IMG/VR virus record: IMGVR_UViG_3300032053_002817
Location: 1 to 23,159 of that record
Length of the DNA stretch: 23,159 nt
Source of the DNA: a virus
Strand: one strand, 5' to 3'
A program made the translations under genes and the position numbers. How positions within the stretch are numbered: the stretch's first letter is position 1; each line of letters starts with the position of its first letter. The notes beneath the pieces were generated by a model. The model did no database searches, was not told the DNA's origin, and saw only the letters and a program-made list of their open reading frames with translations. Shown here piece by piece: positions 3 to 18,037 of the stretch.

Positions 3-1145
3 GCGATGATCAAACGCCGCAACAGCGAGATTCTCGCCAAGACAGGCATCGTACCTTTCCCATTCATCGAAGGCATCTTGTTTGATGAGTCGATCAGTAA
101 AGACTTCGATGCCGTGACGCTATACCAGCGTTTATTGAAATCGCAACCGCCGCAACCGCCGCAACCGCCGCAACCGCCCGCCGCTGGCGATGACGCTGGC
201 GACGATGAAGGCGATGACGCTGGCGACCAGTCGGGCGATGGCGATGCTGGCGAAGCTGGCGACCAGTCGGGCGATGGCGATGGCGACCAGTCGGGCGATG
301 GCGATGGCGATGGCGGCGAAGCTGGCGACCAGTCGGGCGATGGCGATGGCGATGGCGGCGAAGCTGGCAGCGGCGGCGGTAAGTCAAACGAGCGCAAGAC
401 AGATAAGGAAATCTTGGGCGACGAGTGGATCGGCACGGGCGCGGTCGATACTGCCAAGCCTGAGCTAGCTGGCGATGAGACGGCGGAGGAAGCAGCTGCT
501 GCCATCGATGCCGCGAACGAGTCCATTCTGATCGGCGACGAGATCGATTCCCGCGCTGGTATGGGCGGTGCTGGCGGCTCCCGCCAAGTGCAGCAGCAAC
601 GCGCCAGGCGTGACGGATTGGACTGGTCGGACGTACTCCGCCAATGGCTCACCGCCCGATGCGCTACGGGATGGGACAAGCCATTCAACGCCCCCATTTA
701 CTCCAGCACGGGAACGATCTGCGCGGCTCGCTCTGCGCGTGCGCTGCCAGAGATCGTCGTCGTCGTCGATACCTCCTGCTCAGTCCCTGACTCTCTGCTC
801 TCAGAGATGCTGGCTCAACTTCAAGACTGCTTGGACAAGCTCCACCCTGAAGCCCTCCATCTGGTGGCTTGTGACTCCCGCATCCGCGAGACGCATGAGC
901 TTCGCGAAGGCGATGCCGTACCGACTAAGCTCGGCGGCGGCGGCGGGACGCTGTTCACTCCAGCCTTTGAGTGGATGCGCGACAACGTCCCGAACGCTGA
1001 GGGCATGATCTATCTCACGGACGGCGAAGCATGGGATTGGTCAACCGTACAGGAGCCGACTTGCCCGATGCTCTGGCTCGACTACGGCACTCGCGGCGCG
1101 AGTGCCTACCCTTTCGGTGAAGTGGTTTCATTCACTCACCGCTAA
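3..1145 (+). CDS. DUF2201-like VWA protein, 5' end outside the window
   Basis: The frame is open to the left edge. The first ATG in the window is at base 6, but it is probably internal. The first ~45 residues (NSEILAKTGIVPFPF...FDAVTLYQRLL) resemble the end of the DUF2201 metallopeptidase-like domain, where a substrate-loop stretch precedes 'Y..LL'. The HExxH-bearing part would then lie upstream (inference). A disordered Pro/Gln and Gly/Asp-rich linker follows (about residues 47-125 from base 6). The C-terminal von Willebrand A-like domain has a MIDAS motif DTSCS (D255-S259), a Gly-rich turn before TLFTP, and a second acidic strand end IYLTDG (D339). Family knowledge: these proteins pair a zinc-peptidase-like domain with a metal-binding VWA domain, sometimes beside MoxR-type AAA ATPases. 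No ATPase is visible here. The stop is TAA at 1143-1145. Family assignment is fairly confident; cellular role is unknown. Confidence 0.72.
   Translation, partial: AMIKRRNSEILAKTGIVPFPFIEGILFDESISKDFDAVTLYQRLLKSQPPQPPQPPQPPAAGDDAGDDEGDDAGDQSGDGDAGEAGDQSGDGDGDQSGDGDGDGGEAGDQSGDGDGDGGEAGSGGGKSNERKTDKEILGDEWIGTGAVDTAKPELAGDETAEEAAAAIDAANESILIGDEIDSRAGMGGAGGSRQVQQQRARRDGLDWSDVLRQWLTARCATGWDKPFNAPIYSSTGTICAARSARALPEIVVVVDTSCSVPDSLLSEMLAQLQDCLDKLHPEALHLVACDSRIRETHELREGDAVPTKLGGGGGTLFTPAFEWMRDNVPNAEGMIYLTDGEAWDWSTVQEPTCPMLWLDYGTRGASAYPFGEVVSFTHR
147..387 (+). repeat. Low-complexity repeats encoding PPQ and DQSGDGD linker
   Basis: Four tandem PPQ-type units (9-bp CCGCCGCAA-like) are followed by a GC-rich block with four copies of a unit encoding DQSGDGD, starting at 225, 261, 285 and 327, plus degenerate GDD/GEAG units. 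All spacings are multiples of three, so the reading frame is kept. The product is an acidic, glycine-rich, probably disordered linker between the two domains of the VWA protein. Such arrays change length easily by slippage. Confidence 0.85.
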
Positions 1146-1150
1146 CAAAA

Positions 1151-1217
1151 CAAACCAACGGGGGGAGCGCATCCGATCACGCTCACTAATTGAAACAAGA
1201 ACCAACCATATAAAAAC
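1151..1217 (+). promoter_or_regulatory. Repeated leader, copy 1 of 3
   Basis: A 67-base untranslated stretch ends directly at the ATG of the 239-aa gene. Its first 55 bases (1151-1205) match 1975-2029 exactly by eye. It contains a run of six G at 1160-1165, a short hairpin (GAGCG 1165-1169 with CGCTC 1180-1184, 10-base loop), and then an A-rich tail without a Shine-Dalgarno site. The three copies sit immediately before separate genes, which argues for a shared transcription or translation signal. Which of the two is not shown by the sequence. Confidence 0.7.
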
Positions 1218-1937
1218 ATGAATACATTCGACATAAACAACAGCATCCACGCCGCCGCCTACAAACTAGCAGCCCGCCATTTCCTGTCCTCCACCCATGA
1301 GGATTGGGAAGCCAGCCGCCTGTTCAATGCCATCGAGTCCGATGAGGACTCCGACGACTGGCTCACCTGCGAACTCGACCGCGATCAAGTCAACCCATGG
1401 GTCGGCATCGAAGCGAGCTGTGAGCATGTGATGCTCGACCCATGGGTCAGGCTTCAAGAGTACATCGTCGGGCTGGCTGAGGACTTCATCAAGTTCCGAA
1501 CCGCCAGCATCGTGCCGCCAGCCAGCCCAAGCCATCGCCGCCGCCGCGAACTCCGCGAAGGATTCATCGGTGACGTAGCAATCTCCCATATCACGATCAA
1601 GATCTCGAAAGAGCTTGAGAATGTTACACTCCTCGACTTAGGGGGAGTCTACCTCTCATGCGAAGGTCGTGAGTACATAATGGACATCAGCGATAGTTGC
1701 TGGGACATTGAAGACGGATGCACGGAGATCACTTGTGGGTTAAAAACCTTTGATGAAGACGAGATCTTTGAGGAATGTCCTTTCGATCTGACGGGCGAAG
1801 ATTTGTTCTCGTCCTCCTTAAAGGCATCAGTCTTTGTCGGAGACGAAGAGGCGGTGACTGAAGGTGAAGAGATGACGGCAACGCTGTTCGTTGAACGCAA
1901 TGGATGCACCCACGCCATCGAGCTAGCCTTTGAATGA
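1218..1937 (+). CDS. Hypothetical acidic protein, 239 aa
   Basis: No family was recognised. The protein is strongly acidic, with Asp/Glu clusters (ESDEDSDDW near residue 40; DEDEIFEECPFDLTGED near 180). A short basic stretch (SHRRRRELREG) near residue 108 separates an N-terminal helical half from a C-terminal half that reads like beta strands (FIGDVAISHITIKISKELENVTLLDLGGVYLSCEG). Two DPWV/NPWV motifs about 15 residues apart lie over near-copies of the 12-bp palindrome GACCCATGGGTC (1392-1403 with one mismatch; 1437-1448 perfect). The ATG follows leader copy 1 with the tail TAAAAACATG, which supports this start. A phage accessory protein of unknown function is the most that can be said. Confidence 0.8.
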   Translation: MNTFDINNSIHAAAYKLAARHFLSSTHEDWEASRLFNAIESDEDSDDWLTCELDRDQVNPWVGIEASCEHVMLDPWVRLQEYIVGLAEDFIKFRTASIVPPASPSHRRRRELREGFIGDVAISHITIKISKELENVTLLDLGGVYLSCEGREYIMDISDSCWDIEDGCTEITCGLKTFDEDEIFEECPFDLTGEDLFSSSLKASVFVGDEEAVTEGEEMTATLFVERNGCTHAIELAFE

Positions 1938-1980
1938 ACCGTACTACCATAGTACAAACCGTACTACCATAGTACAAACC
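1937..1980 (+). repeat. Two tandem 20-bp units, each a GTACTA-CCA-TAGTAC dyad
   Basis: The unit GTACTACCATAGTACAAACC occurs at 1941-1960 and 1961-1980 without change, directly after the stop codon of the 239-aa gene. Each unit contains a perfect 6-bp inverted repeat around three bases (arms 1941-1946/1950-1955 and 1961-1966/1970-1975). The second unit runs into leader copy 2. Spacing of exactly 20 bp puts the two dyads on nearly the same DNA face, as expected for a tandem operator. Copy 1 of the leader lacks these units, so they may be a recent duplication. Confidence 0.85.
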
Positions 1981-2042
1981 AACGGGGGGAGCGCATCCGA
2001 TCACGCTCACTAATTGAAACAAGAACCAAACAAATAAGAAAC
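1975..2042 (+). promoter_or_regulatory. Repeated leader, copy 2 of 3
   Basis: This copy shares 55 identical bases with copy 1. Its last ~20 bases before the ATG (accaaacaaataagaaac) are instead shared with copy 3, so it is a mosaic of the two others. The six-G run is at 1984-1989, followed by the GAGCG/CGCTC hairpin. It is preceded by the tandem GTACTA dyads and ends at the ATG of the 78-aa gene at 2043. Confidence 0.7.
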
Positions 2043-2279
2043 ATGAAAATAGATATCAAGAACATGACAGAAGCGCAAGTGGGAGTGTACTTCAAAGCTA
2101 GGGTCGCAGAGACGAAACGATTCGGCTACACATACGTTCACAGCGGGATGCGGAGCGGACAGAGCACCATCATTGATGGCATCCGCTACTACATCGGGAG
2201 CTATGGGCGGAGCCTACAAAATAAGAAGGGTCACAAATATAAGGTCATGGCATGTAAAGAGGAGGAGGCGGTAGCATGA
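2043..2279 (+). CDS. Hypothetical small basic protein, 78 aa
   Basis: No family was recognised. The protein is basic, with an N-terminal helix (MTEAQVGVYFKARVAETKRFGYTYV) and a strand/turn-rich centre (TIIDGIRYYIGSYGRSLQNKKG). It ends in KEEEAVA. The start is fixed by leader copy 2 (AAGAAACATG). The stop overlaps the next start as ATGA at 2276-2279, so the following gene is probably translationally coupled. The size and position suit a small early or accessory phage protein. Confidence 0.72.
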   Translation: MKIDIKNMTEAQVGVYFKARVAETKRFGYTYVHSGMRSGQSTIIDGIRYYIGSYGRSLQNKKGHKYKVMACKEEEAVA

Positions 2280-2446
2280 AACACTTAGTCCTCGTAATTC
2301 ACTCAGGATGTGTAGCCTACCAACTCAGTACATCGACGAGGGTATCATCAGGCTCCCATCCAATGGGCGACGACACCCCTCAACAGGTCATCGACTACCT
2401 GATCGGCATCCTGAAGCCTGACTCGCACGAAGTCCTGCGAGACTGA
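2276..2446 (+). CDS. Hypothetical small protein, 56 aa, translationally coupled
   Basis: This short gene fills what would otherwise be a 170-base gap. Its ATG overlaps the preceding TGA (ATGA) and its TGA is at 2444-2446. The product starts MKHLVLVIHSGCVAYQLSTS and ends in TPQQVIDYLIGILKPDSHEVLRD. The C-terminal half looks like one amphipathic helix. The N-terminal stretch is beta-like rather than a convincing signal peptide. The overlap, the absence of other genes here and the fit up to leader copy 3 support it as real. Function unknown. Confidence 0.65.
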   Translation: MKHLVLVIHSGCVAYQLSTSTRVSSGSHPMGDDTPQQVIDYLIGILKPDSHEVLRD

Positions 2447-2455
2447 ACATGACCC

Positions 2456-2517
2456 GATGGGGGGAGCGCATCCGATCACGCTCGCTTATACAAACGCAAA
2501 CCAAACAAATAAGAAAC
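2456..2517 (+). promoter_or_regulatory. Repeated leader, copy 3 of 3
   Basis: The G-run and hairpin block at 2459-2483 matches copies 1 and 2 over 25 bases. The next ~15 bases diverge (GCTTATACAAACGCAA instead of ACTAATTGAAACAAGA). The last ~20 bases before the ATG match copy 2. The conserved parts are therefore the G6/hairpin block and the A-rich pre-start tail; the middle is a tolerant spacer. An in-frame ATG at 2449 lies upstream of the leader, but the parallel with the other two copies shows that the real start is 2518. Confidence 0.7.
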
Positions 2518-3425: not shown

Positions 3426-3753
3426 CCAAAGCATTCTCGAAACTGTAGCCCGCCGTGCAAAAGTCACGGCGGGCTTTCTTTGTTTATCACGCGAGAAGGA
3501 CGTGACCGCATGGAGGATGATCGCCATCCACATGATGCGGGAAAGCGGGATGACGATGGCAAGCATCGCCGCCGCCGTAGGTCGGGACGCATCCACTATC
3601 CATTACGTTTCCACAAAAATAAACAAGCTGAAGAACCAGAAGTGGTTCATCGAAATGCTGGCATCGATTGAGGAGGAGCAACGTCTCGACGTGTTCTGCC
3701 GCCAGCGCATACCAATGACGGTGTACGCTGCGGCGTTCGCATCGGAGGATTAA
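3415..3753 (+). CDS. Stand-alone DnaA domain-IV-like HTH protein, 112 aa
   Basis: Residues 4-73 follow the helical pattern of DnaA domain IV, the DnaA-box binding HTH. SQSILETVARRAKV matches the lead helix, TAWRMIAIHMMRESGMTMASIAAAVG matches the RQIAMYL...LSLPEIG region, and GRDASTIHY (56-64) matches the signature GRDHSTV. The AAA+ domain of DnaA is absent, so this is a DNA-binding protein, not an initiator ATPase. It might bind phage or host origin sequences, or act as a regulator (inference). The start at 3415 is needed to include the first helix. A strong intrinsic terminator lies inside codons 11-24. The TAA shares TTAA with the stop of the giant gene on the other strand. Confidence 0.78.
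   Translation: MLNSQSILETVARRAKVTAGFLCLSREKDVTAWRMIAIHMMRESGMTMASIAAAVGRDASTIHYVSTKINKLKNQKWFIEMLASIEEEQRLDVFCRQRIPMTVYAAAFASED
3447..3485 (+). terminator. Intrinsic terminator inside the DnaA-like gene
   Basis: There is a perfect 11-bp GC-rich stem (AGCCCGCCGTG 3447-3457 with CACGGCGGGCT 3465-3475), a 7-base loop, and then TTCTTTGTTT. The U-rich tract exists only for the plus-strand transcript, so it should stop transcription of the left gene block. It lies within the coding sequence of the DnaA-like protein, about 33 bases after its start, so it may act as an attenuator for that gene. Confidence 0.8.
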
Positions 3754-6700
3754 GGCTCGATGAGAATGTAACGGCTGTATTTTTTAAGCTCGTCGTTCGC
3801 GATCTTTATCCGCTCCATGCCCTGCTCGTTCGTCGGGTCAGCCAGTCTGGCTTGGAAGTCAGGCGTGAGGACGGGACGATCCATCATCTTGTTGAATAGC
3901 AAGCGGGATCTATCTTTCCCGTAACCCATGTTCTTGCCTGTCATAATGCTGTAGATCTCCTGAGTCGGTAAGCCTAAGCCTTCGTACCCGCGCAGCTTGC
4001 GATAGATCTCTTCGTTCATCGCCGCCTTATCCTCCACTTCCGATGTGACGATCTCGCGGATGGATGCCTCATCGATAGGGCGTTCGCTAAACAGCACATT
4101 CTTCCGCTCATTGATGCGGTTGTACACGTCACGCGACTCCGACAAGTAACGCCTGAGTTGCTTATCCAATTCGATATCGTGACGCTTAACAGGATAAACT
4201 TCCTGCATCAGGATACCGATGGGCGAGCTATCAAAATCCGTATAGTCGGAGCCGACCGCCTGATAGGATTTGATGGCGCGATTCATAACGCTTGGCATAT
4301 ACGCCTGACGGAATACGTGAGACATCGACTTGACAAGAACGGTTCCCGTCGAGTCGATCTTCGATTCGTAGATCGGCTTGTCAGTCGCGGGATCACGGTT
4401 GTCTCGCAGCGATTGGATGGCGGATGAGAAGATCTGATCGTCCAGATACTGGTCGAAGATCGCCGTCTCAACCAACGATGCCGCCGCTTTGGCAAGATCG
4501 CCGCGCACCAGATGCTCCATCGAACGCAGGGCTGGATCGGATACCAATGAAAATGGATTGAGGAACGTGAGATCCCAAGACTGTAGCTTGCCATCGGATC
4601 GTCGGCGGTAAAAGAACGTGTGGTTTCTTAAGTAAGAAGGCAACGAAGCGCGTAAGGCTTCGTCTTCATCGTCTCCGATTCCCGTTATCGCACGGAGTAC
4701 GGCGGGAACGATCATCGAAACGCCGCCCACTACGAAGGTCATGCCAGCGAAACGCTTTTGTCCGCGTGCTTTGATGACGCTGTTGTCGCTCCTCATCTCA
4801 TCGATGGCGAGCTTGTACGTGTTCAGTACGATGCGCGGGACTTCAGCTTTGAATCGGAGGAACGGCGAGAACAGTAGACCGATGCCCGACTTGGAGATCT
4901 CCTTCACGATGGGCGGAGCTTGGCTTGCCGACTGCGCTGTCATCAGGACTTTGCTCGCTGCTTCACGCTTCAGCTCGTAGTCACTCATCGTTCCGTACTT
5001 GCCGCCGCCCGCAGTTCTTGCGCTCGTAAGTACTTTGAGTTCGTTCTCATAGTAGGCGATCTTGTAGAATGCATCGGCGGATTGCGCGAGAAGCTGTGCC
5101 TTCTCCGTCAGCCATGTGAGCGGCTTCGTTCCTGAGTGGGCGACCTTGATCAGCTTGTCCAACTGACTTTCAACAGACTGGATTGTGGTTGTGCCGCGCA
5201 GAAGATCCGCCATGACGGTGGCTTTGATTTCGTTTCCGATCACACCCAACGAAATGAGTTCCGAATGGTACGTATCTATCTGATTTGGATCGGAAAGCGT
5301 AGACCAGATTTCTTTGCGAGCCGTACCAATCATCGATCCGAAGTTGACGAAGCCTTGTGAAGGTCCAAAGAAAAGGATGTTGCTGGCGATGTTGCGGATG
5401 TAGAAGCCTAATGATCCTAAAGTCTTCGCCGCCATCGCTCCGCCCGTAAGCTTTGCGAATAGGCTCAACGTCTTAGCCACACTTTCTTGTGCGGTGTCCA
5501 TGTTCTGGTTGCGGGATTCCGAAGAGAAGACTTTGTTCAGACCTTCGACAAGTTCGGGAGGTCCAAAGAGATCGCCCAATGGATCGTAAGCGGATGCATC
5601 TTTAGCATGACGGATTGTGGTGTAGTTCTTATACGTATCGTAGTCAGCGGTTAGCTTCGCGTCCAGCTCTGCTCTGGTCATCAACCAACCGCCATCAACT
5701 CCGATGGTCTTAACGTGTTGTAAGAATGATTGGTTAGCAGCCATCGATGAGACGGTCACGAACGAACGAAGCAGGTTGTCAACTCCTGATTCGGAACCGT
5801 ACTCTCCTAAGATACCGCGAAGTTCTTCTGGTATATCTTTCTTCTGCTTGATGTTCTTCAGAAGGATGCGGAACGATTCAGACATAGATGAACCAGCGAG
5901 AGGGGAGATTCCTTTTTTCTCGTAGTGCGAGATGAATTCCTCCAGAGCGTTCTCTGAGATAGACCTTCCGTTAGCAGCTTTGTTTGCCAGATCGATACGA
6001 GCGTTGTTCTCCGCGTCGGACTCAGTCTCGCCAGCCTTCACCCGACGTGCTGTCTCATACTCCACGAACTTCTCCCCAAAAAAGTCCATCGCTGCCTGAC
6101 GCTGTGGTTCGTATGACGGATCGCTGCGTACCGTTTCGGCAAAGCCTACTTCGTGGAACATCTTATACGAGCGGGTCAAGTAGATGCCCAACTGCGAATC
6201 GAACGTAGCTGCAAGCTCAGGCTTGAATCCGTACAAAGATGTTACTCGATTAGATACTTCATCGGTTAATGTTCTGAGCTGTACAATGTGGCGTGCAAGA
6301 TCGGGAGACTGCTTCGCGAGACTCTCAAGTGCAGCATTGCGTGCCGCACGGATTGCATCGGCTTGTGCTGTTCGTTCCGCATCGATGGCTTGCGCTTTGT
6401 CATCGATAGCAATCTTCCGTGCCGCCGTCTTTTGCTTTGCGTTGAGCGTAGTGTCGATGTCTATCGTCTCAAGTGCTGTTTGATACGTGTCTTCGATCTG
6501 ATCGACGATAGCTTTGTCCAAGACTGTACCGCGTGTAGATCCGATGGCAGCTGCGATGTCGTCGAGCGGTGCGTTCTTCAGAGAACCGAAGTCCTTCTCG
6601 ATGATACCGTCGAGCTTAGTCTTGTAGTTCTTAACCAGATTTGCAGCTGCGCTCTTGAAGAAGTCGCGATGGTTCTTCAGAGTGGTGATGCGCGGGTCGA

Positions 6701-6860
6701 GTTCTCCTTTGAAGAGACGGTCTAGTATTGTTTTGGGCGAGCGGTACGTACCGACTTCAAGCATCGGCATCTCCAACGCTTGCACGAAGTTGCTGAAGTC
6801 CATCTTGTCCGCGTCGAAGCGAGCGGGCAGTTGTGATACATCGCCGAAGGATGTACCTAC
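3750..6860 (-). other. Giant protein segment F (residues 3094-4129): LPD38-like C terminus
   Basis: A long charged helical region (about 3150-3330) leads to TLGSLGFYIRNIASNILFFGP, then GIGLLFSPFLRFKAEVPRI (3752-3770) and a hydrophobic GMTFVVGGVSMIVPAVLRAITGI (3799-3821). This order matches what I know of 'large polyvalent protein associated domain 38'. The last ~200 residues are charged and helical. Probably structural: packing in the capsid or membrane insertion. Confidence 0.5.
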
Positions 6861-9800
6861 TTTGATTGAGTCTCCTCCATTCTGCGGTACGAATGGCGCA
6901 GCCCGCATCTCTTCCGTTATAGATCTCGCACGGAGTGATCCTTTCGGTAGGATGTGTACGGGTATCGCCGCAGCTCCTAACTCCGAAGCGGCATCTGTTC
7001 GGCTACGTCCTTCATGGTCTGAGACTTCCCAGACTTTGGATCGCTCATTCCAAATGGCTGACAAAAATGGAGGAGCGATTGCATTCCCTTCCGCTATCTG
7101 ATTTTTAATAAATGGAATAGTCTTCTCGTCGAAGTTACCTTCTGGAACTAATGAACGGAAGTCAGCTGGACTCATCGTCTTGACGAATCCGAAGTAGTCG
7201 ATATCAGCCTGATTCGGAGTACCTCCTACGCCAGTGCTGTCCCACTTTATGTCACCGAAGGATGTACCTACAGAGACATTAGTTTGTCCAGTAGCATTTC
7301 CAGTTGCGAGTTCGTCATCCCCTCCGCTATTTCGTGGGGTTCGATTGGTTCTGATGGATTCTGCGATGGCTCTGGCTTCGTCTCCGAATCCGCGTTGCGT
7401 TGCGATGTTAATGAATTCTTCGTCATAAGATAGTTTAAGGTTGCTCTCCTCTTTCCCTGTTAGCTTTGCCCAAAGATCTTTTTCTGGATACCACAGGATG
7501 GCTTGGATGTCTGCGTTAGTGGTTTCATATCCTAATGCTTTTAATTGTAAACGGCTATTGTTGACAATCTTCGTGATCACTCTGCGATCTTGATCGGACG
7601 GTGCATCGATGGGGTTGAGCCTTGCTTTGATGACGCTCGCGGCATTAGCCCATGATGGCTTAACCTCTTTCATCTGGTCTTTGGTAAGGAACGTATCCCT
7701 TCCTGCTTTGGCAAACTCTTGCGCCCTCCACGCATCAATCGTAATGCGCGGAGTCTTACCTTTTGCAACCAGCGCATCAAATTTATTTGGCAAATCATTA
7801 AGCAACACTTCCCGTTTGGCATCGGTAAGCTTTTCTTTTTTAGCCGCAGCGATAGTCTCTTTTGTTTTCTTTGCCATCCAAGCTTCCCGCGTAGTCGGAG
7901 GAAGGTTCTTACTGGCTGACAGTGCTGCGTGTTCTGCGTTAATTTTTGTGGCGAGCTTATCCGTAGTAGCAACATATTGCTTTAAAGTTATTTTGCCAGA
8001 CAGTAAGTCGTCGGACAACTTCTGACTTATCGGCTGACCCAATAACTTGTATTGACGTTCCCATTCAGCGTTGAGCTTGATGGCGGTATCGTTGCACAGC
8101 TCCCTGAATTTTCTATCTGTCGTGAGTCTTTCAACGGCGGTATACTCAACGGTTAATTTTGTACTGCCATCTTTTTTTATGATAGGCTTGCCCGCTTTAT
8201 TTAGGTCGGGAACAAGCTTAATCTTTTCGAGAGCATAAGGTAGAGGGACATTAGCTTCTCTCGCTCCAATAATTAAGTTAGCCAGACGAGATTCAGTAAC
8301 GCCGTCACCGACTACATCGCCAGTCCATCGACCCCATGTACGCCGCATCCATAGATCAACCGTGACAGGATCATAGACCGACAGTAAATTCTGTAAGAAT
8401 CCCTGTCCAATCTTCGGTCCAAAGAGTGCCGCTCCGTTTACTTTGTCGTCGTTGGCTCCAGAGACGGTGACTTTCTTGCCACGGATCTCGCTTGCAATCG
8501 CCGTCAACTGTTTAACAGTAAACTCTTTTCTAACAAACATCTCCCCTTCTCCATATCCGTATTTTGCAACTAGAATATTTGCAAGATTGAGATTACTTTT
8601 GATTGCTGCGGCTTTCGATCCGTAGCTTATTGTTGGGTCAAATTGTCCGTCACGCTTTAGTGCTGTGAATTGCTCTTCGGCGTATCGGGTATTCTGTTCT
8701 ACGTTGATGTTCTGCGAAGTGATGGCGAGTGCCATACGCATTGCAAAGTTCGCTGCCTGTACTGGATCAGCAGCAGAAGCAAATGCTGGCACAGCTCTCG
8801 CTGCGTTGACATCTGAGAGTTCGGGATGGATAACAGCGGCAACACTCATCGCTACTTCAATCGCAGTAGAGTACCAGTCGGCGGCATTCCTTCCGCTAGC
8901 GTTGAGCGCGGCGACAACTTCTCTTGTGCAGTTGTCCGTGATAATAGCCATCTGCTCTGGAGTAATGTTGTTGCTAGTAACTATACCGCCCCAGAATTTT
9001 TGAGCCATCTCCGCCAGTTGATTGGCAACAACTTTGTTGGTAGCTTTGACCGCAGACTTTGTCGCTCCATGTAGTAACAGGAGAGAGGACATTGGGAACG
9101 GAGCTTCTGAAAGTTGAGCAGCTAGATCACCGAATGATGTGCCTACTTGATTAGAGAACATTCCAACTACGTCGGATGGATTCTCTGGATCGAATGACAT
9201 TGAGTTCGGAGACAAACGATATCCCGATTGCAGCGCACGCATCTCAGTGACGATGCGTTGGACGGCTACAACTTCATCGGCAGACATCGCGAGAACAGAC
9301 TTGCCACGAACAAAAGATCCAACTTCGTTATTGATGTTGATTGTGTTGCCAAACATCAGGTTGATCATGTTCTTTAGGTAACGTCCAAGAATCTTTAATG
9401 TGCTTGGGTTAGTTCTCCAGAAGGCGTAGTCCTGTTCGGTCGTAGTATTGCGCTGAACTTTCTGTGCCAGCATCCGTAAGCGTTCCTCAACGAGACGTAT
9501 CTTCTCTGCTCCCGAAACTTCAGGATCTTCACTGCGAAGTCTTTCAAGACCGAGCGCACGGTTGGCTTCGTTACCGTAGTATTCGTTTGCGATCTCTTCA
9601 AAGTCCGAATCCTTTTTAGCCTTGACGATGGTGTCGATCTCAGATTCCGTAAGTGAGTTGAACGAAGCGACGTGACGCATCTCCTCATCCACCATCGTCT
9701 TGATGGCGAGACTCGCTTGAGCTGGAGTCCTGCCGATGAGGAGTGCCGCTACGCTCTGAGGATTCATTGACATCACTCCCGTCTGAAGATCAACCTCAGC

Positions 9801-12800
9801 CATTGATATCTCAATGTCCCAACGTAATGCAATCTCTTTAGGAACCAGTCGGCGGACAAGAAGCATCGAACGCTTCATCGTCTCGATCATCGTTTTGTTC
9901 GTATCCGTTGTAGGATCAAACGCGATACTGGCGGGATCAACATCCAACATCAAATCAGAAACCTGAACATCCTCATCAGCTTTTGCTGCGGCTTCTTCTG
10001 CTTCGGCGGCAGCGTACTCGTTATCGAGAACATTACCGTCTCCAGTAACAGCTCCGAACGCAGTGCCTACACTCTTCGCGTTAGCCAGCAACTCGCTTGA
10101 CTTAACGGCGAGCTTGTTAATCAAACCGCTTGGAGCGTTAGGCGCAGAGTGAATAGCTGAACGTGTGAGATCGATCACGTCCGTGAACGCCTGTTGGTAA
10201 GCGGACTGTCTTGACTTGCCCATTCCGAATACGTCGAGAATCGCATCGACAACGCGAGCAAAGAATCCACGTTGTTTAGCTGGAGGCGTGAGAGTCTTAA
10301 CCAGATTCTGGAAATCGGTTGACGTAAAGAAGTGTGCGACGAACTCGTTAAGATCAACCAGACCATCCGTTAGCATCGGTGAATCGATCCCGTTATTGGC
10401 AGCGGTATCACGTACCAGATTCAGGATTCCGTTCAAGCGTTGGATAGCAGAACGCTGATCTTCCGTTTGAAGTTCGGTCGGAGCGGACACTACTCTGTTC
10501 ACGAAAGCGTGCAGATACTCATGCATCAATGCATCGGATAGTCCTCTGCCGTTGTGTCCATTCAAGTTCAACGATACGGCTGACGTACCGTCTGCCATCA
10601 CTACGAACTGACCAGCGTATGGTAAGCTGACTTCGTCTAATGAGAAAGTAACTTGTCGGATAAAGGATTGGTTCTCCAGTAGGAGTCTAGCTAGAAGCTT
10701 CTTGTTCGGATCTGTATCCGTAGCGGCGATGACTTTAAAAGCGTTGATGACGGATTGTGGATCACCATCCTTCAGCCCTAAGCTTGCGACATCTGCGTCG
10801 TTCAGATTGCGTGCGAACTGTGCTTGTTCTCCGCGCACGTAGGATCGCGAGAACAAACGTGTGGCTACTTGTCCGATTGACTTAGCAAACTCTCTGGCTT
10901 GTCTGTTCGTTACGGTGAATCCAGATGACGATGAAAGATTTCTTGCCAGTTCTGCAATGTAATCAGGATCTTGATCAATGCTTCCAGTAACTGATCTAGA
11001 TGCGATGTGCATAATCTTCAGCGCATCACGCAGAGCCGTGCCATTTTCATAGTCACCGTCTTGAAGACCTCTTTGGAAAGCAATGGCTTCGGGATTGGTA
11101 GCGTGGTTCCCGCTTGCCATCCACGATGCGAGTTGACTGAATGCGTCTTGCGAAGTCATCCCGCTGATATCGAATGCACTATTCCCTTTATACAATGTAC
11201 TACGTAATAGTTTATCCAACGCTGTACGTAACTCAGGATCAGCATCGATGGATTCGATGGCATCCGATGCCGTGCGTTGTAACAAACCCTTAGTGAACTG
11301 AGACGTTGGGCTAAACAGATTCTTATCAGGAGTAATGTGCTGGATAGATACTTCTTGATTAGGATCATATGCTTGATCAGAAATCTTAGAGAGCTTGTCT
11401 GGAGACGTTGTCTGGAACAATGCTCTACGTGCAAATAAGTTTCTTCTTCTCTGCTGATCTGCATACATATTGCCAACTTTTTCACCGACAGAACGTAAAG
11501 TCGGTGGGACGGTAGGAGCTGTGAGGATATGGTTGTTGATGAAGTTAGCGATAACTAGATCAGGATTTGTTTCAGGATTCACATCGCTTCCGAATGTTTT
11601 TTGGAGGCGGGTAGCAACGATAACTTTTTGGTTGACCCCCTCTGGCTTCGTTAATCCAATGAATTCATTGATAGCTGCGCTGACTCTGTCAGGTTTAAGC
11701 GAAGGAGAAGCTTCTCCAGAGACACGCTGAGAGGATTTGTCGAATGACAATCGCATGGCGTGCAAACGCAGCGCACGGCGGTATGCCATATCGAACGCAA
11801 TCGTCGCCGTTTCTTGGAAAGTACTATCTAATGTACCAGAGTACGGCTTAATTGCGTCCGCAATACGGGTAGCAGATTCATTTCTACTTCTGCTTCTGAT
11901 CCTCAAGCGAGCGGCATTGGCACGCACCGCATCTCGATATTCTGTCTCATCTCCCTGATCTTGGAGCTTCTCCATAGCGTCGGTACGCATATTGGTTACG
12001 GTATTAAGTGCATCTCTGAGAGTAATCTTTTCGCTTTGCTTAAGCGGGTTTGAGATAATTTGCTCGCCAGCCGTCTTGTTATTAAACAAGTTTTCAAAGT
12101 CACTTACTTTCGTAATGAAGTCGTAATCTGGTTCCTCACTAAGAACGGTATCCTGTCTCGTAAGCGTCGATACGAATCCCGATCCCGTTGCGGGATTTAC
12201 TTTGACGATATCAGTAAGAATATGCTCGCTGCCTAGCTTGCTGTATCGGAATGATGGATTGATCTTACTAAGATCAAACCCTTCAGGTATCACAACAGGA
12301 TGGTTGTTCTCCATCAGTACCTTCATCGTCAACGGATTGTTGTCGAACTCACCGACACCATTATCGTTGACGTACCCTGTAGGAGCAGTTCTGGTTTTCT
12401 TATTTAGTTTAGTATCAAATATAGTTACTCTGCTACCTATTACTTTAGTCCAATTTTTCTGTACGGATAGGGCGATAGACTTATACATCTCAGCCGTCTT
12501 CTTGGCTATCAAGTCAGACTTGCCCTCAAGATATCCTGTGTCGTAAGATGCACGCTTCGGGTATCCGTGTAGTTCTTTCGCCTGTAAGCGAACGGGGAAC
12601 CCGTATCCGATTAGGCGTTTAAGCGTGGAGATTTCTTGTCCAGTAAACTCGTCGTCGATGAACGTCTCTTCATCAAATATTTCTGGTACTTTTTCAGTGG
12701 GTTTCTCAGATACATCTTGCCCGAAGGATGTTCCTACTTTGGTTGACTTCTTGCTAGCTTTGGTTGGCTTCTTGCCAGCGGCAATGATCGGGACAGACGC

Positions 12801-15800
12801 GACAGTATCTTCAACAGCGGCTTCGACAATAGCTTCGCTCTCGTCTACGGAGCCAGCGTGGTTGCTGCTCTCCATGATAGCTTCTTGAATCGGATCAAGT
12901 CCAAGCTGTTCGGCATCAGCCGTCTTGTCTTGGTTCTTGATGCTCCGTCTAGAACGTGGAACTTTTACTGGCGGTGCGCCGTTAGCGGATAGCTGGAGTT
13001 CAAGTTGTCCCGTCGGAGCAGATGATGCTTCTTTAAGAGATGCCTCTTTCTGTTCCATCTGAGCGACAACAGGACTAACTCCTTTTCTGGCAGCGGTTTT
13101 GCGTCCCTTCTTTGCCGTTTCATTCGGGATAGAATCAATATCCATCCCCACATCTGGAGCCTTATTGGGGTCGGTGACGATGGCAGAGGCAACAGATTCT
13201 TGTGACGTGTTCGCGTGTAGTGCGGCAGACATCTTTTCGACTTCGGCTATCGTCGTCGGCATCTTCGGCTTCTGCTTTGCAATCGCTTCTTGATTATTTG
13301 TCAAATCAAGTTGCGTGATAACGGTAGCTGCTTCGTTGCCATCTTCATCCGTGTAAGTTACTTCTCTAGTTTCTGGATCGTATCCAGTCACTTTAAGTAC
13401 ATCACCAAAACGATCAGTGATTTCTCCTGCGGAAGCAACGTCCGACTTCAGGAGTTCGTGCATCACGTCGTAGTCATCGGGAGTCTTGTACTCTGCTTCA
13501 GTAGCCACAACAGGCGCAGCCACAACAGGCGCAGCCACAACAGGCGCAGCCACAACAGGCGCAGCCGCAACAGGTGCAGCCGCAACAGGTGCAGCCACAA
13601 CAGGCGCAGCCACAACAGGCGCAGCCGCAACAGGTGCAGCGGGACGTGATGCTTTTAACTGCGCTTCAGCTGCCATTGCGCGTGTGCGTCGTGGAGCTGA
13701 CAGAATTCCATATACGGCTTGAGCCGTTAATGGACTGCCGCTGGCTTCAAGCGAAGAGCTGACTCTTTTAGCGAAGTCAACTTCAACCGCCAGTTGGCGT
13801 TCTCGCGAGCTTTGTTTGAACATTGGAGCAGCAGCCCCACGGATCGCTGGAACACCTGCGCCCATAAACCCACCGAGAAGTGCGGCGTAACCCGCTTGTT
13901 CTAGTCGCTTGAGGAACGGAGTATTCTGATCGGTTGCTGCATCGGTTATGAATCCGTTGATGAAGTCATCAAGACCTTCTTCCCCTGCTTCGTCTACAAA
14001 CCCTTTGCCAACTTCTTTAGTTAAGTTTGATCCGTATTTTTTAAATACGTTTTTCATTTCTGCCGCAACAACTTTATTGAAGACTTCGTCTTTGATGTCG
14101 CTGACATTGGCGATACGCGCCATAACGGATTTGAGTTCGCTTCTGGTAGCACCTTTGAGCATTGCGTCTTCAAGACCGCCGTGACCAAATGCTCCGAACG
14201 CGCCCGTAATCAATCCTGTAATTGCTCCTGCTGCTAGTCCCGCTCCCAACGCACGGTCGTGACGTTCTTCGGGAGTGATGTCTTTATTGTTTTCCAGCTG
14301 TAGATACACACCTGCATAGGTAGCACCAGCAGAACGGTTGAACGCAGGAATTGCCATCGCCGAAGTGACCCCGACCTTTTTAGCCATCTGGCTATTGAAT
14401 CCGTTGATAGCCGCCATCGATCCTTTTGTGCCAGCTTCTTTAACCGATTCTTTAATCAAGCCAGCAGCAGCGATGCGAGATGCTGCTCCTTCTACTGTCT
14501 CATTTGGTAGCTGGCGGAACGCCCCACTAACCAAACCTTTAACCAATCCCTTAGCGGTAAGTCTGGCTCCCTGTTTTGCAGCGAGATATGCAGCACCTCC
14601 GATCCCGCCAGCTGGAGCGGTTGCCATAGCTAGAAGCGTCGTAGCTGCCATGTCAACGATCATTGGAGCAATCGTCTCTGAGAGATCTTGACCCATGCCA
14701 TACTCACGTCCGAACATACGTGCAACCTCACGTCGATTCTGCCTCTCTTTGATGTTGCCCACCATGTAATCACGCGCCCAATCAGCACCCATTATCGCTG
14801 GCACGGCGGATAACAGTTCCCCAAAACCGTCAAGAATGGATTCTTTGATGCCGCCTACGCGGCTTGTAAGCTCGCTGAAGTTATCTGGATTAGATACAAA
14901 TTGCTGAAGAGTATCCGAGTCTTTACTCCCGCTGGCACGCCCGCTCTGTAATGCGTTAAGCCAGTCACTTGAAATCGTAGATTCTGTTAGGATTTTGTTG
15001 TAGCTATCAAACGAGTTTGCTGCGGATATTTCACGCTGTGCGTTCAGAGCAGTCCTTTGGCTTTCCGTAATCTCAGGATGCGCTGCTAGAGCTTTATCAA
15101 ACAGTGGCTTGTTCAGCATCAGTGCTGGAGAAACAAATGGCGTGCCATAACCGACGTTGCGGACGTTGCGACCCACGTCTTCATCTTCATAGAATTTAAA
15201 TTTGTTCTGGTCGTTCGCCGAATAGTAAGCCAGTTGAGTAAGAGCTTTATCAACTTCTTCGTCACTAAACGTATGACCTGATTTAAGGTTGGCGTTGAGG
15301 GAACGCCGTACAGCGGAGATGTCAGGCTTCTGAGCATCAAAGATTTCTCTATCGTTCTCATCAGCCCATGCGAGAGATGTTCCAAAAGAGTCAACAACTT
15401 TAGCCGTCTGCGCATCGTTCTTAACAAGCTCGCCAATCATAGCGGCAGCTTCGTTATAACGTGCCACTTTATATAGCGGAGCTTTGTACCCTAACGGAGT
15501 GCTGAGTAGCGACTGCACGTTCAGAGCGTCTGAGAAACCAACGCCTCCTGTTTTACTGGAGCGGATAGCTTCGGAAAGGTTCATCGAATCCATCATCGAT
15601 CCAGCGATGATTTCTTGCTCGCCGTCTTCGTTAGTTACTCTAGCAAGTGGTAGTTCTCCGTTAAGTACTTTGATACGTTTTGCAGTATCAAATCCTTTTA
15701 GGGCAGCTTCTTCGGCTTCTTGTCTGTAACGGTCACGCGAAGGGATTAAGTCGGGAGCGAGATTATCAAGATCTTTATGGACGGATTTGAAAGTCAAGTA

Positions 15801-16139
15801 ACGATTTGCAGCCGCCCATTCAGGATCACTGGTATCCATCGCGTCTGCCATCATCAAGAGCTTCGTGTCAAGATCTGGCTCTTTAGTCGTAAACAAAGAG
15901 TCTACTTCCTCTTGGTTAGTTGGATCAATCAATCCAGCTTCAGCGGCTTTGTCTCTGGTTGCAGTGTTGATCTCGTTTGCAACGGTGCTATTGTAAGAAT
16001 TTGATTTGATATATTCTCCGCGAACATAGTCAGCGTATCCTTTCCTATTCTCGATAGCGTCTCCCGAATTATTTTGCGGCTCCCAATCTTTAAACGAAGT
16101 AAAGTCAGGCGTTTTGAGTAAGTCTTCAAGCTCTGGCAT
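3750..16139 (-). CDS. Giant multidomain polyvalent phage protein, 4129 aa
   Basis: One uninterrupted frame, roughly 450 kDa. In order: a helical N terminus; membrane-active glycine/alanine helices (about 489-523, 629-652, 748-771); a (P)VVAAP linker (836-880); a zincin-like site MHEYLHAF (H1873, E1874, H1877) with a downstream NEFVAHFF glutamate (E1932); a degenerate DEEMRH site (2151-2156); a helical domain with GPK...VTVDLWMRR and IQAILWYPEK (about 2480-2900); a ParB-like domain with HEGRSR (3042-3047); and an LPD38-like C terminus (GIGLLFSPFLRF at 3752). VGT(S/A)FG recurs at 1135, 2024, 2332, 2957 and 3094. Known: phage 'polyvalent' proteins of this architecture are packaged and injected with DNA. 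Inferred: this is an ejected virion protein, possibly processed. It follows the 338-aa gene by 28 bases, in the same transcript as the two smaller putative virion proteins. The start ATG at 16137-16139 has no Shine-Dalgarno site. Confidence 0.88.
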   Translation of the reverse strand: MPELEDLLKTPDFTSFKDWEPQNNSGDAIENRKGYADYVRGEYIKSNSYNSTVANEINTATRDKAAEAGLIDPTNQEEVDSLFTTKEPDLDTKLLMMADAMDTSDPEWAAANRYLTFKSVHKDLDNLAPDLIPSRDRYRQEAEEAALKGFDTAKRIKVLNGELPLARVTNEDGEQEIIAGSMMDSMNLSEAIRSSKTGGVGFSDALNVQSLLSTPLGYKAPLYKVARYNEAAAMIGELVKNDAQTAKVVDSFGTSLAWADENDREIFDAQKPDISAVRRSLNANLKSGHTFSDEEVDKALTQLAYYSANDQNKFKFYEDEDVGRNVRNVGYGTPFVSPALMLNKPLFDKALAAHPEITESQRTALNAQREISAANSFDSYNKILTESTISSDWLNALQSGRASGSKDSDTLQQFVSNPDNFSELTSRVGGIKESILDGFGELLSAVPAIMGADWARDYMVGNIKERQNRREVARMFGREYGMGQDLSETIAPMIVDMAATTLLAMATAPAGGIGGAAYLAAKQGARLTAKGLVKGLVSGAFRQLPNETVEGAASRIAAAGLIKESVKEAGTKGSMAAINGFNSQMAKKVGVTSAMAIPAFNRSAGATYAGVYLQLENNKDITPEERHDRALGAGLAAGAITGLITGAFGAFGHGGLEDAMLKGATRSELKSVMARIANVSDIKDEVFNKVVAAEMKNVFKKYGSNLTKEVGKGFVDEAGEEGLDDFINGFITDAATDQNTPFLKRLEQAGYAALLGGFMGAGVPAIRGAAAPMFKQSSRERQLAVEVDFAKRVSSSLEASGSPLTAQAVYGILSAPRRTRAMAAEAQLKASRPAAPVAAAPVVAAPVVAAPVAAAPVAAAPVVAAPVVAAPVVAAPVVATEAEYKTPDDYDVMHELLKSDVASAGEITDRFGDVLKVTGYDPETREVTYTDEDGNEAATVITQLDLTNNQEAIAKQKPKMPTTIAEVEKMSAALHANTSQESVASAIVTDPNKAPDVGMDIDSIPNETAKKGRKTAARKGVSPVVAQMEQKEASLKEASSAPTGQLELQLSANGAPPVKVPRSRRSIKNQDKTADAEQLGLDPIQEAIMESSNHAGSVDESEAIVEAAVEDTVASVPIIAAGKKPTKASKKSTKVGTSFGQDVSEKPTEKVPEIFDEETFIDDEFTGQEISTLKRLIGYGFPVRLQAKELHGYPKRASYDTGYLEGKSDLIAKKTAEMYKSIALSVQKNWTKVIGSRVTIFDTKLNKKTRTAPTGYVNDNGVGEFDNNPLTMKVLMENNHPVVIPEGFDLSKINPSFRYSKLGSEHILTDIVKVNPATGSGFVSTLTRQDTVLSEEPDYDFITKVSDFENLFNNKTAGEQIISNPLKQSEKITLRDALNTVTNMRTDAMEKLQDQGDETEYRDAVRANAARLRIRSRSRNESATRIADAIKPYSGTLDSTFQETATIAFDMAYRRALRLHAMRLSFDKSSQRVSGEASPSLKPDRVSAAINEFIGLTKPEGVNQKVIVATRLQKTFGSDVNPETNPDLVIANFINNHILTAPTVPPTLRSVGEKVGNMYADQQRRRNLFARRALFQTTSPDKLSKISDQAYDPNQEVSIQHITPDKNLFSPTSQFTKGLLQRTASDAIESIDADPELRTALDKLLRSTLYKGNSAFDISGMTSQDAFSQLASWMASGNHATNPEAIAFQRGLQDGDYENGTALRDALKIMHIASRSVTGSIDQDPDYIAELARNLSSSSGFTVTNRQAREFAKSIGQVATRLFSRSYVRGEQAQFARNLNDADVASLGLKDGDPQSVINAFKVIAATDTDPNKKLLARLLLENQSFIRQVTFSLDEVSLPYAGQFVVMADGTSAVSLNLNGHNGRGLSDALMHEYLHAFVNRVVSAPTELQTEDQRSAIQRLNGILNLVRDTAANNGIDSPMLTDGLVDLNEFVAHFFTSTDFQNLVKTLTPPAKQRGFFARVVDAILDVFGMGKSRQSAYQQAFTDVIDLTRSAIHSAPNAPSGLINKLAVKSSELLANAKSVGTAFGAVTGDGNVLDNEYAAAEAEEAAAKADEDVQVSDLMLDVDPASIAFDPTTDTNKTMIETMKRSMLLVRRLVPKEIALRWDIEISMAEVDLQTGVMSMNPQSVAALLIGRTPAQASLAIKTMVDEEMRHVASFNSLTESEIDTIVKAKKDSDFEEIANEYYGNEANRALGLERLRSEDPEVSGAEKIRLVEERLRMLAQKVQRNTTTEQDYAFWRTNPSTLKILGRYLKNMINLMFGNTININNEVGSFVRGKSVLAMSADEVVAVQRIVTEMRALQSGYRLSPNSMSFDPENPSDVVGMFSNQVGTSFGDLAAQLSEAPFPMSSLLLLHGATKSAVKATNKVVANQLAEMAQKFWGGIVTSNNITPEQMAIITDNCTREVVAALNASGRNAADWYSTAIEVAMSVAAVIHPELSDVNAARAVPAFASAADPVQAANFAMRMALAITSQNINVEQNTRYAEEQFTALKRDGQFDPTISYGSKAAAIKSNLNLANILVAKYGYGEGEMFVRKEFTVKQLTAIASEIRGKKVTVSGANDDKVNGAALFGPKIGQGFLQNLLSVYDPVTVDLWMRRTWGRWTGDVVGDGVTESRLANLIIGAREANVPLPYALEKIKLVPDLNKAGKPIIKKDGSTKLTVEYTAVERLTTDRKFRELCNDTAIKLNAEWERQYKLLGQPISQKLSDDLLSGKITLKQYVATTDKLATKINAEHAALSASKNLPPTTREAWMAKKTKETIAAAKKEKLTDAKREVLLNDLPNKFDALVAKGKTPRITIDAWRAQEFAKAGRDTFLTKDQMKEVKPSWANAASVIKARLNPIDAPSDQDRRVITKIVNNSRLQLKALGYETTNADIQAILWYPEKDLWAKLTGKEESNLKLSYDEEFINIATQRGFGDEARAIAESIRTNRTPRNSGGDDELATGNATGQTNVSVGTSFGDIKWDSTGVGGTPNQADIDYFGFVKTMSPADFRSLVPEGNFDEKTIPFIKNQIAEGNAIAPPFLSAIWNERSKVWEVSDHEGRSRTDAASELGAAAIPVHILPKGSLRARSITEEMRAAPFVPQNGGDSIKVGTSFGDVSQLPARFDADKMDFSNFVQALEMPMLEVGTYRSPKTILDRLFKGELDPRITTLKNHRDFFKSAAANLVKNYKTKLDGIIEKDFGSLKNAPLDDIAAAIGSTRGTVLDKAIVDQIEDTYQTALETIDIDTTLNAKQKTAARKIAIDDKAQAIDAERTAQADAIRAARNAALESLAKQSPDLARHIVQLRTLTDEVSNRVTSLYGFKPELAATFDSQLGIYLTRSYKMFHEVGFAETVRSDPSYEPQRQAAMDFFGEKFVEYETARRVKAGETESDAENNARIDLANKAANGRSISENALEEFISHYEKKGISPLAGSSMSESFRILLKNIKQKKDIPEELRGILGEYGSESGVDNLLRSFVTVSSMAANQSFLQHVKTIGVDGGWLMTRAELDAKLTADYDTYKNYTTIRHAKDASAYDPLGDLFGPPELVEGLNKVFSSESRNQNMDTAQESVAKTLSLFAKLTGGAMAAKTLGSLGFYIRNIASNILFFGPSQGFVNFGSMIGTARKEIWSTLSDPNQIDTYHSELISLGVIGNEIKATVMADLLRGTTTIQSVESQLDKLIKVAHSGTKPLTWLTEKAQLLAQSADAFYKIAYYENELKVLTSARTAGGGKYGTMSDYELKREAASKVLMTAQSASQAPPIVKEISKSGIGLLFSPFLRFKAEVPRIVLNTYKLAIDEMRSDNSVIKARGQKRFAGMTFVVGGVSMIVPAVLRAITGIGDDEDEALRASLPSYLRNHTFFYRRRSDGKLQSWDLTFLNPFSLVSDPALRSMEHLVRGDLAKAAASLVETAIFDQYLDDQIFSSAIQSLRDNRDPATDKPIYESKIDSTGTVLVKSMSHVFRQAYMPSVMNRAIKSYQAVGSDYTDFDSSPIGILMQEVYPVKRHDIELDKQLRRYLSESRDVYNRINERKNVLFSERPIDEASIREIVTSEVEDKAAMNEEIYRKLRGYEGLGLPTQEIYSIMTGKNMGYGKDRSRLLFNKMMDRPVLTPDFQARLADPTNEQGMERIKIANDELKKYSRYILIEP
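6861..7271 (-). other. Giant protein segment E (residues 2957-3093): ParB-like domain
   Basis: This 137-residue unit is bounded on both sides by VGTSFGD. It contains a strand/helix lead-in (QADIDYFGFVKTMSPADF), APPFLSAIWNERSKVWEVSDHEGRSRTDAASELG and a final strand AIPVHIL. This follows the ParB/sulfiredoxin pattern in which G/D-HxR (here HEGRSR, 3042-3047) begins a helix, followed by 'G...vPv.i'. ParB-like domains occur in polyvalent proteins. Its small size and clean boundaries make it the best test case for processing. Confidence 0.6.
7272..9146 (-). other. Giant protein segment D (residues 2332-2956): helical polyvalent-type domain
   Basis: This 625-residue helical segment contains GPKIGQGFLQNLL...PVTVDLWMRRTW (about 2574-2604) and ADIQAILWYPEKDLW (about 2876). 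Pairs of such motifs recur in a domain of unknown function seen in phage proteins; I recall it as DUF7178-like but cannot verify that here. A lysine-rich helical insert lies between them (about 2700-2830). No catalytic residues could be assigned. Confidence 0.45.
9147..10070 (-). other. Giant protein segment C (residues 2024-2331): degenerate zincin-like
   Basis: This 308-residue segment holds TMVDEEMRHVASFNSL, where EExxH (E2152 to H2156) replaces HExxH at the start of a helix. EEIANEYYG follows at a distance compatible with a third-ligand glutamate. The preceding ISMAEVDLQTGVMSMNP resembles a zincin edge strand. It may be an inactive or altered relative of the domain in segment B. This reading is tentative. 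Confidence 0.4.
10071..12737 (-). other. Giant protein segment B (residues 1135-2023): zincin-like domain
   Basis: Near the end of this 889-residue segment, ALMHEYLHAFVNRV places H1873, E1874 and H1877 in an HExxH arrangement. LNEFVAHFF 55 residues later offers E1932 or H1936 as third zinc ligand. The preceding strand AGQFVVMADGTSAVSLNL fits the edge strand before the active helix in zincins. Family knowledge: HExxH zincins are frequent in phage polyvalent proteins. The rest of the segment is mostly helical and unassigned. Likely an active peptidase; its target may be the host or the protein itself. Confidence 0.7.
12738..16139 (-). other. Giant protein segment A (residues 1-1134): membrane-active N terminus
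   Basis: This is the part before the first VGTSFG. About 480 helical residues precede glycine/alanine-rich hydrophobic stretches at roughly 489-523, 629-652 and 748-771 (for example GAGLAAGAITGLITGAFGAF). Between them is FVDEAGEEGLDDFINGF, a pattern common between membrane helices of phage ejection proteins. A VVAAP linker follows, then about 250 charged, probably disordered residues. Penetration of the host inner membrane during DNA ejection is inferred from the hydrophobic pattern only. Confidence 0.6.
13501..13635 (-). repeat. Nine 15-bp tandem units encoding VVAAP/VAAAP
   Basis: Nine consecutive 15-bp units of GCAGCC(A/G)CAACAGG(C/T) fill 13501-13635 exactly; the first begins GTAGCC. Read on the minus strand they give proline-alanine-valine pentapeptides at residues 836-880. 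Only two unit variants exist (ACA..C giving PVVAA, GCA..T giving PVAAA), so the array is young or homogenised. It likely forms an extended, protease-resistant linker after the membrane-active domain. Confidence 0.9.
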
Positions 16140-17856: not shown

Positions 17857-17879
17857 TACTGTATCGTTTTGTTGGAAAT

Positions 17880-18034
17880 GTATTTACATTGTGAGTAACC
17901 TTTAAATTTTCCCTTTAATATAAACTTTATTATTAACTGGAGTTACATTGATTCTCAAGAAGCAATGTAACTCCGACTAACGTAGGAGTTTATAATAGGG
18001 GTATGAAATGCCAGTTTACTCACATTGTAAATAC
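17880..18034. repeat. 155-bp concentric imperfect dyad between TerL and the virion genes
   Basis: The outer arms 17880-17899 and 18014-18034 are inverted copies with one mismatch and one inserted base (core TTTACA(A/T)TGTGAGTAA). The inner arms 17939-17950 and 17963-17974 are perfect. Both pairs share one centre near 17957. The 39-base stretches between inner and outer arms have equal length and match at 18 positions, including TATAAACT in register. The region is AT-rich and noncoding. Candidate roles are a tandem operator, a replication origin or a terminase recognition site; the sequence does not decide. Confidence 0.75.
17939..17974. repeat. Perfect 12-bp hairpin at the centre of the dyad
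   Basis: GGAGTTACATTG pairs with CAATGTAACTCC. Inside, after one A-G mismatch, TTC/GAA pairs again, leaving a TCAA loop. An alternative, mutually exclusive hairpin can form between AACTCC (17969-17974) and GGAGTT (17985-17990). No U-tract follows on either strand, so it is not a standard terminator. Confidence 0.8.
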
Positions 18035-18037
18035 ACC

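Follow-up and report, generated by a model that had tools for sequence, protein, structure and literature searches.

Among the closest described systems is the gene 32 (SSB) operator of phages T4 and RB69, in which, according to excerpts of the published account, an mRNA pseudoknot of ~28 nt is followed by an unstructured, A-rich leader (PMC535899). The two-part layout (a knot and an unstructured A/U-rich leader) is, as far as those excerpts go, common to the leaders analysed here. The T4 knot, however, precedes ssb and is described there in T4-like phages, whereas the present element usually follows a gene (at 13 sites an SSB-like one, which led us to reject a T4-type operator 5' of ssb), adjoins many unrelated genes in many phage groups, and carries a fixed GGG/CAU/GCG signature. 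The STAXI pseudoknot (Rfam RF01728) is found near genes for DNA-handling proteins, SSBs included, and consists of two or three units in tandem, each set having UUCG loops (available part of PMC2864571). Proximity to genes for DNA-handling proteins is a likeness within that part of the source, but our element lacks the tandem units (it is single in 193 of the 211 listed loci), and the RF01728 model matched none of five phage records at E values up to 10; nor did any of the elements at 13 loci give a match.

The put RNA of phage HK022 is, in the passages available, a short cis-acting RNA between early phage genes (PMC9378689); the present element is likewise a short RNA between phage genes, but the sequence differs at both put regions, where the motif was absent by eye and by a loose pattern (39,732 bases). 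Cluster K mycobacteriophages carry repeated intergenic elements (SAS/ESAS), including the linear 13-bp SAS at start codons (excerpts of PMC3203893); the likeness that these excerpts allow lies in repeated intergenic elements in phage genomes, and the 13-bp SAS consensus had no match, at up to two mismatches, in the window (the whole 23,159-nucleotide stretch of IMG/VR record IMGVR_UViG_3300032053_002817 analysed here). Rfam 15 at the gathering score gave no match in the window, and across 12 loci it returned tRNA and tmRNA elsewhere only, none at the element. Riboswitches and recoding signals contain small H-type pseudoknots of the same topology class, but the present element has neither an associated metabolic pathway nor a favoured reading frame. 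Weinberg 2017 reportedly comprises 224 motifs, and we found no description of the element in open-licence PMC papers. It looks like a previously undescribed signal built into phage messenger RNAs.

The repeated block and its predicted fold

The 25-base block GGGGGGAGCGCATCCGATCACGCTC occurs, as originally predicted, in three exact copies (1160-1184, 1984-2008 and 2459-2483). Its 23-base core had three exact matches in the window (with up to three mismatches permitted) versus none in 100 dinucleotide shuffles, so that the three-copy block is far beyond chance expectation. All three copies are contained in a 67-base repeat family (D6), in which the second and third show 96% and 78% identity to the first. 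The remaining details of the repeat also held: copies 1 and 2 are identical over ~55 bases, the tail ACCAAACAAATAAGAAACATG is common to copies 2 and 3, and each A-rich tail runs to a start codon (Table 1). In the centroid fold, these leaders (33-34 nt) are mostly unpaired. A short hairpin (GTACTACCATAGTAC) is present in two tandem copies (1941-1955 and 1961-1975) after the 239-aa ORF and ahead of pseudoknot copy 2.

Table 1. Coordinates of the predicted pseudoknots, their leaders and adjoining genes in the window
Feature	Position	Strand	Remarks
VWA-like gene (DUF2201, PF09967), upstream of copy 1	6..1145	+	stop 13 nt 5' of N0
Predicted pseudoknot, copy 1	1159..1184	+	from exact sequence and family covariation
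Copy 1, N0	1159		C
Copy 1, G1-N2	1160-1161
Copy 1, loop 1	1162-1164		GGG
Copy 1, stem 2 5' arm	1165-1169		GAGCG
Copy 1, CAU	1170-1172
Copy 1, stem 1 3' strand	1173-1175		CCG
Copy 1, loop 3	1176-1179		AUCA
Copy 1, stem 2 3' arm	1180-1184		CGCUC
A-rich leader, copy 1	1185..1217	+	to ATG 1218
239-aa ORF	1218..1937	+	no family match; stop 45 nt 5' of copy 2
Predicted pseudoknot, copy 2	1983..2008	+	layout as copy 1, offset 824
A-rich leader, copy 2	2009..2042	+	to ATG 2043
56-aa ORF	2276..2446	+	stop 11 nt 5' of copy 3 N0
Predicted pseudoknot, copy 3	2458..2483	+	N0 = U (U-G with N6)
A-rich leader, copy 3	2484..2517	+	to ATG 2518
Terminase large subunit	18066-19835	-

Judging by its variation across viruses, the block is almost certainly an H-type RNA pseudoknot of ~28 nt that belongs to a large phage-associated RNA family. 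The family pattern reads N0 G1 N2, GGG, NNGCG, CAU, N4 C5 N6, a loop of n3-7, CGCNN: stem 1 (3 bp; pairs 0-6, 1-5 and 2-4) joins the start of the G run to the hairpin loop, stem 2 has 5 bp, and loop lengths differ between sites. Conservation in the family covers loop 1 (GGG), CAU, the inner pairs GCG/CGC and an A directly after the element; many of the ~27 positions are near-invariant, several of these having been set by the search patterns. In most patterns the inner stem-2 pairs were held fixed, position 3 and the U of CAU being left free in a dedicated test, and one scan that left the middle stem pair free retrieved no additional well-paired stem. Thermodynamic folding was uninformative (z = -0.31, -0.67 and -0.50 for the three copies); these z-scores alone give no sign of a pseudoknot, and the structural evidence is comparative. 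The hairpin first proposed for the block survives as stem 2; a plain hairpin is ruled out, since the G run covaries and pairs with the loop.

Under looser patterns, the outer pairs of stem 2 change in ways that keep pairing (GA/TC, AA/TT, CC/GG, GT/AC, GC/GC). A variable-loop scan returned at least 119 stretches, and both outer pairs were formed (>=5 stem pairs) in 64 of the 79 new matches read, where ~11 were expected (the pattern had fixed the inner three). For stem 1, base 1 and loop base 5 were G-C at 118 sites, A-U at 6 and others at 2 (126 sites, L083 excluded). A further scan, for a changed base 2 together with a changed loop base 4, gave at least 120 stretches; both outer stem-2 pairs were present in 97 of the 113 matches read, and at 94 of these 97 pair 2-4 was standard (U-A 69, A-U 17, C-G 8) versus ~61 expected from marginals. 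Pair 0-6, on which we never filtered, was standard in 180 of the 231 listed sites and took all four Watson-Crick forms (shuffle mean 94.6, with none of 10000 shuffles as high); restricted to distinct anchored cores, the count was 106 of 135 versus 52.8 in shuffles. Over 72 distinct rows (L083 and L151 excluded), 91.7% of the cells of the named helix were paired, with a covariation score of 0.160, as compared to 0.074 in shuffles (0 of 500 as high) and 0.000-0.092 for slid partners.

A fourth pair, between position 3 of the G run and the U of CAU, was rejected: a dedicated scan gave 107 matches, of which 21 had both outer stem pairs, 7 of these 21 with the pairing, and most resembled coding sequence. 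This pair is invariant or absent, which sets stem 1 at 3 bp. One copy in Francesca carries UAU, with A on the opposite side of the stem, so that the usual C-A juxtaposition becomes U-A. Loose-pattern matches in L026, L027 and L090-L096 were left out as chance, and those in L046, L048 and L057 were judged coding.

Distribution among viruses and bacteria

The element was found at no fewer than 231 sites in 211 loci (at least; 167 distinct cores), a handful of the listed sites probably being coding chance matches. A search with the exact 18-mer core recovered 9 stretches in 8 IMG/VR contigs (one or two copies in each), which fall into two groups (A and B). The same VWA gene precedes the element in both groups; its protein is only 24-30% identical between them, and the noncoding block after it shows one stem-pair difference (G-C vs A-U). 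Further occurrences include Shagrat (Rhodococcus), Silvanus (Stenotrophomonas), S-EIVl (Synechococcus), Faith1, Imvubu and Francesca (Mycobacterium and Rhodococcus) and the archaeal virus MetMV (Methanosarcina); among Mycobacterium phage records, 23 were listed with a pattern match, two of which were read directly. Shagrat encodes an integrase and an immunity repressor, which indicates that the element is not limited to virulent phages. A tblastn search (1e-5) of 50,697 phage records found no match to the window terminase, and hence no sequenced isolate of this phage group is contained in them.

The original prediction counted absence of the block from related phages as a refutation; the element is present in related and unrelated ones alike, a recurrence that bears out a maintained, phage-associated element in untranslated mRNA. 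Of the suggestion that such modules are spread by recombination, a part is supported, as copies are gained and lost between relatives. The intergenic region of one relative (G006) that matches window copy 2 has kept the A-rich tail, and the pseudoknot is absent from it.

Bacterial genome contigs contained no stretch of the exact form and eight of the near-exact form, all eight of which were read by eye as chance or coding (stems of 3 bp in five, 4 bp in two and 5 bp in one). A looser pattern matched in 34 of 396 and 21 of 369 bacterial genomes; both helices were satisfied in one of the 54 matches read (60 listed), and this single consistent match is probably due to chance. The element is essentially not found in the 765 bacterial chromosomes sampled.

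The window and its relatives carry other repeated or unusual features. Three genomes have genome-specific 16-bp dyads, namely TGTCATAAATATGACA in G003 (L031; 13 copies), TGCAGTAAATACTGCA in G005 (L035; 11 copies) and TGCATTAAATAATGCA in G007 (L041-L042; 10 copies), each without the other two versions. Six copies of the G003 dyad lie at 26-bp spacing (7-137), and some dyad copies are directly 3' of the pseudoknot; the dyads look like a genome-specific operator array. In group B, a conserved leader element, GCGTAGCTTACCGCATAGTTG(T/G)AGC, stands repeatedly before start codons (L031 2336; L035 7706 and 7980; G007 and G008) and may be a second structured RNA. The early regions of G006 and G001 (L028, L038) have several intergenic hairpins after stop codons, with arms like GCTTAGTGCG / GCATTAAGC; between the two genomes the sequence differs and the pairing is kept. 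A 4129-aa ORF without Pfam match adjoins the packaging genes of the window (3750-16139, minus strand), and ORFs of 3611-4414 aa occupy the equivalent place in related contigs; within it, a 15-bp tandem repeat (13503-13640) encodes an A/P/V-rich linker. Long AT-rich inverted repeats (I1, I9; 17879-18035) separate the terminase gene from the next one.

Position relative to neighbouring genes

The stop codon of an open frame (>=40 codons) was present within 60 nt upstream in 199 of the 231 listed sites, and in 165 it lay 3-14 nt from the element on the coding strand; the antisense control gave 99 sites with such a stop, evenly spread. The spacing from stop to knot has its mode at 6-9 nt and is typically 5-10 nt, and the rule holds also at one site located 8 nt after a tRNA-Thr gene. 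Distances from the knot to the start codon downstream vary widely (0-79 nt, median 20). Of the 231 listed sites, 54 have no such anchor within 20 nt, and some of these resemble coding chance matches. Exceptions to the usual placement include two viruses: MetMV carries the element in the leader of the gene that comes first beyond a divergent region, where a TATA-like stretch ~27 nt upstream would by inference place the RNA start near the G run, and in S-EIVl no preceding frame has a stop at the usual distance. Neighbouring genes were called by simple ORF rules, and as 75 of the 231 listed sites lie within an ORF of >=60 aa that was kept greedily, the lengths of co-directional runs were not used.

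When site pairs were sorted by neighbour homology, 128 shared the upstream gene only, 27 the downstream gene only and 77 both, a bias that rests on few upstream families (VWA-like, 13 sites; SSB-like tails, 13; a ~105-aa protein, 10). By this comparison, the element tends to stay with the upstream gene where the downstream gene differs. The 13-site family we take to be SSB-like from its C-terminal D-E-I-P-F tail; Pfam gave no match in the six proteins with this tail that were tested (6/6), and PHROGs assigned SSB to 2 of 73 upstream proteins. Operon neighbours match DNA-metabolism families (helicase, RecT/Erf, exonuclease), and in G003 and G006 the element comes towards the end of the early operon, so that few genes follow it. 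The genes downstream of 167 sites fall into 123 clusters and are thus mostly unrelated. At 76% of 209 sites the first base 3' of the element is A, and the flanks of these 209 sites are otherwise A-rich without a motif; the median A fraction across 154 leaders is 0.44.

Candidate functions and significance

We reason that the element very probably acts in cis in mRNA, at the border between two cistrons. The original prediction had proposed a phage-specific promoter, which is opposed by the low upstream information (at most 0.21 bit, at -2, in 209 sites) and by the two interleaved covarying helices with variable loop length. Replacement of Shine-Dalgarno sites is unsupported as a general rule, since an SD-like string is still present in 56 of 154 leaders and it is the end of the upstream gene, not the start codon, that anchors the element. 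An intrinsic terminator is likewise unsupported, the U tract being mostly missing (TTTT within 14 nt in 19 of 209 sites).

Within this frame, our preferred, still tentative, mechanism is an intercistronic mRNA barrier. Loop 1 (GGG) would pack in the deep groove of the GC-rich stem 2 and create a rigid knot, which would fold after the upstream ribosome terminates and serve as a cis barrier or landing point between two cistrons; most likely, it would determine how stable the upstream segment is during infection and at what relative level it is expressed. Intercistronic hairpins play such a role in some bacterial operons; here a phage-specific knot would take their place. Two observations lead us to prefer a barrier serving the upstream segment: the anchoring of the element at the upstream gene, and its tendency to be inherited together with that gene. 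For MetMV and S-EIVl, the positions given above make a 3'-end role alone insufficient. In addition, the sequence conservation exceeds the needs of a purely mechanical role and hints at a specific partner; together with the leader positions in some phages, it leaves room for a polymerase- or protein-binding role. As a whole, the combination of pseudoknot family and intercistronic barrier is the best explanation we can offer, at somewhat less than even chances.

A bolder and rather unlikely generalization is that the element is a 28-nt RNA handle, common to phages with no other relationship and to at least one archaeal virus. It would bind a machine that all bacteria and archaea possess (RNA polymerase or the ribosome) and thereby give phage messages an advantage. 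If this were true, the same knot would have spread or re-arisen across hosts from Mycobacterium and Synechococcus to Methanosarcina, and would amount to a general hijacking signal, unrecognised before and nearly exclusive to viral genomes. A more specific possibility, to which we give a low probability, is a signal in the nascent RNA that, in the manner of the HK022 put RNA, would bind host RNA polymerase and keep it from pausing or terminating; it would act in cis and without a phage protein, on a polymerase conserved enough for bacterial and archaeal hosts. The few copies per locus, their coding-strand orientation within operons that hold DNA-metabolism genes, and a position just after the stop codon (so that ribosomes leave the knot folded) agree with such a signal, as do the presence in the archaeal MetMV and the strongly conserved bases, suggestive of a conserved partner. 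The motif, however, is without match at the put regions by eye and by a loose pattern, and its late placement in the early operons of G003 and G006 leaves few genes downstream of it.

Somewhat more doubtful is a translational leader or operator that serves the downstream gene and is recognized by a protein (a phage SSB, for example), as in T4 gene 32. The two-part layout of the published operator (PMC535899, in excerpts), the A-rich and mostly unpaired window leaders, and the upstream family with the SSB-like tail are all in its favour. Nevertheless, the T4 knot precedes ssb and here the knot follows the SSB-like gene, Pfam matches none of the six such proteins tested, PHROGs assigns SSB to only 2 of 73 upstream proteins, and the broad start distances and diverse downstream clusters are at odds with an operator of the downstream gene.

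The modal stop-to-knot spacing of the present element (6-9 nt) agrees with the geometry of known recoding pseudoknots, and a knot 5-9 nt past the stop could pause terminating ribosomes and cause readthrough, frameshifting or reinitiation. We regard such a ribosome-facing role as improbable: the three frames are open through the element in 140, 134 and 135 of 176 cases, with none favoured (median open lengths of 18, 17 and 21 codons), all three stops are in use, the frames of downstream starts are mixed (59, 42, 53), and the element also follows a tRNA gene. A feature that works at the level of DNA (a dimeric repressor's operator, a single-stranded-DNA structure of the kind proposed for STAXI or a recombination linker between modules) is equally improbable. 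It would fit the frequent swapping of neighbours on one side and the coming and going of copies among relatives, but variable loop lengths would rotate its arms around the DNA helix, orientation tracks the coding strand, and the interleaved helices covary.

The structured regulatory RNAs of phages are poorly charted. An element with more than 200 sites, distributed over phages of several bacterial phyla and an archaeal virus and near-absent from the sampled bacteria, points to a shared, undescribed step of infection. Given its small size and its presence in phages of Mycobacterium smegmatis mc2 155, point mutation can address its function directly, and the intercistronic knot is a potential compact part for the control of expression between operon genes.
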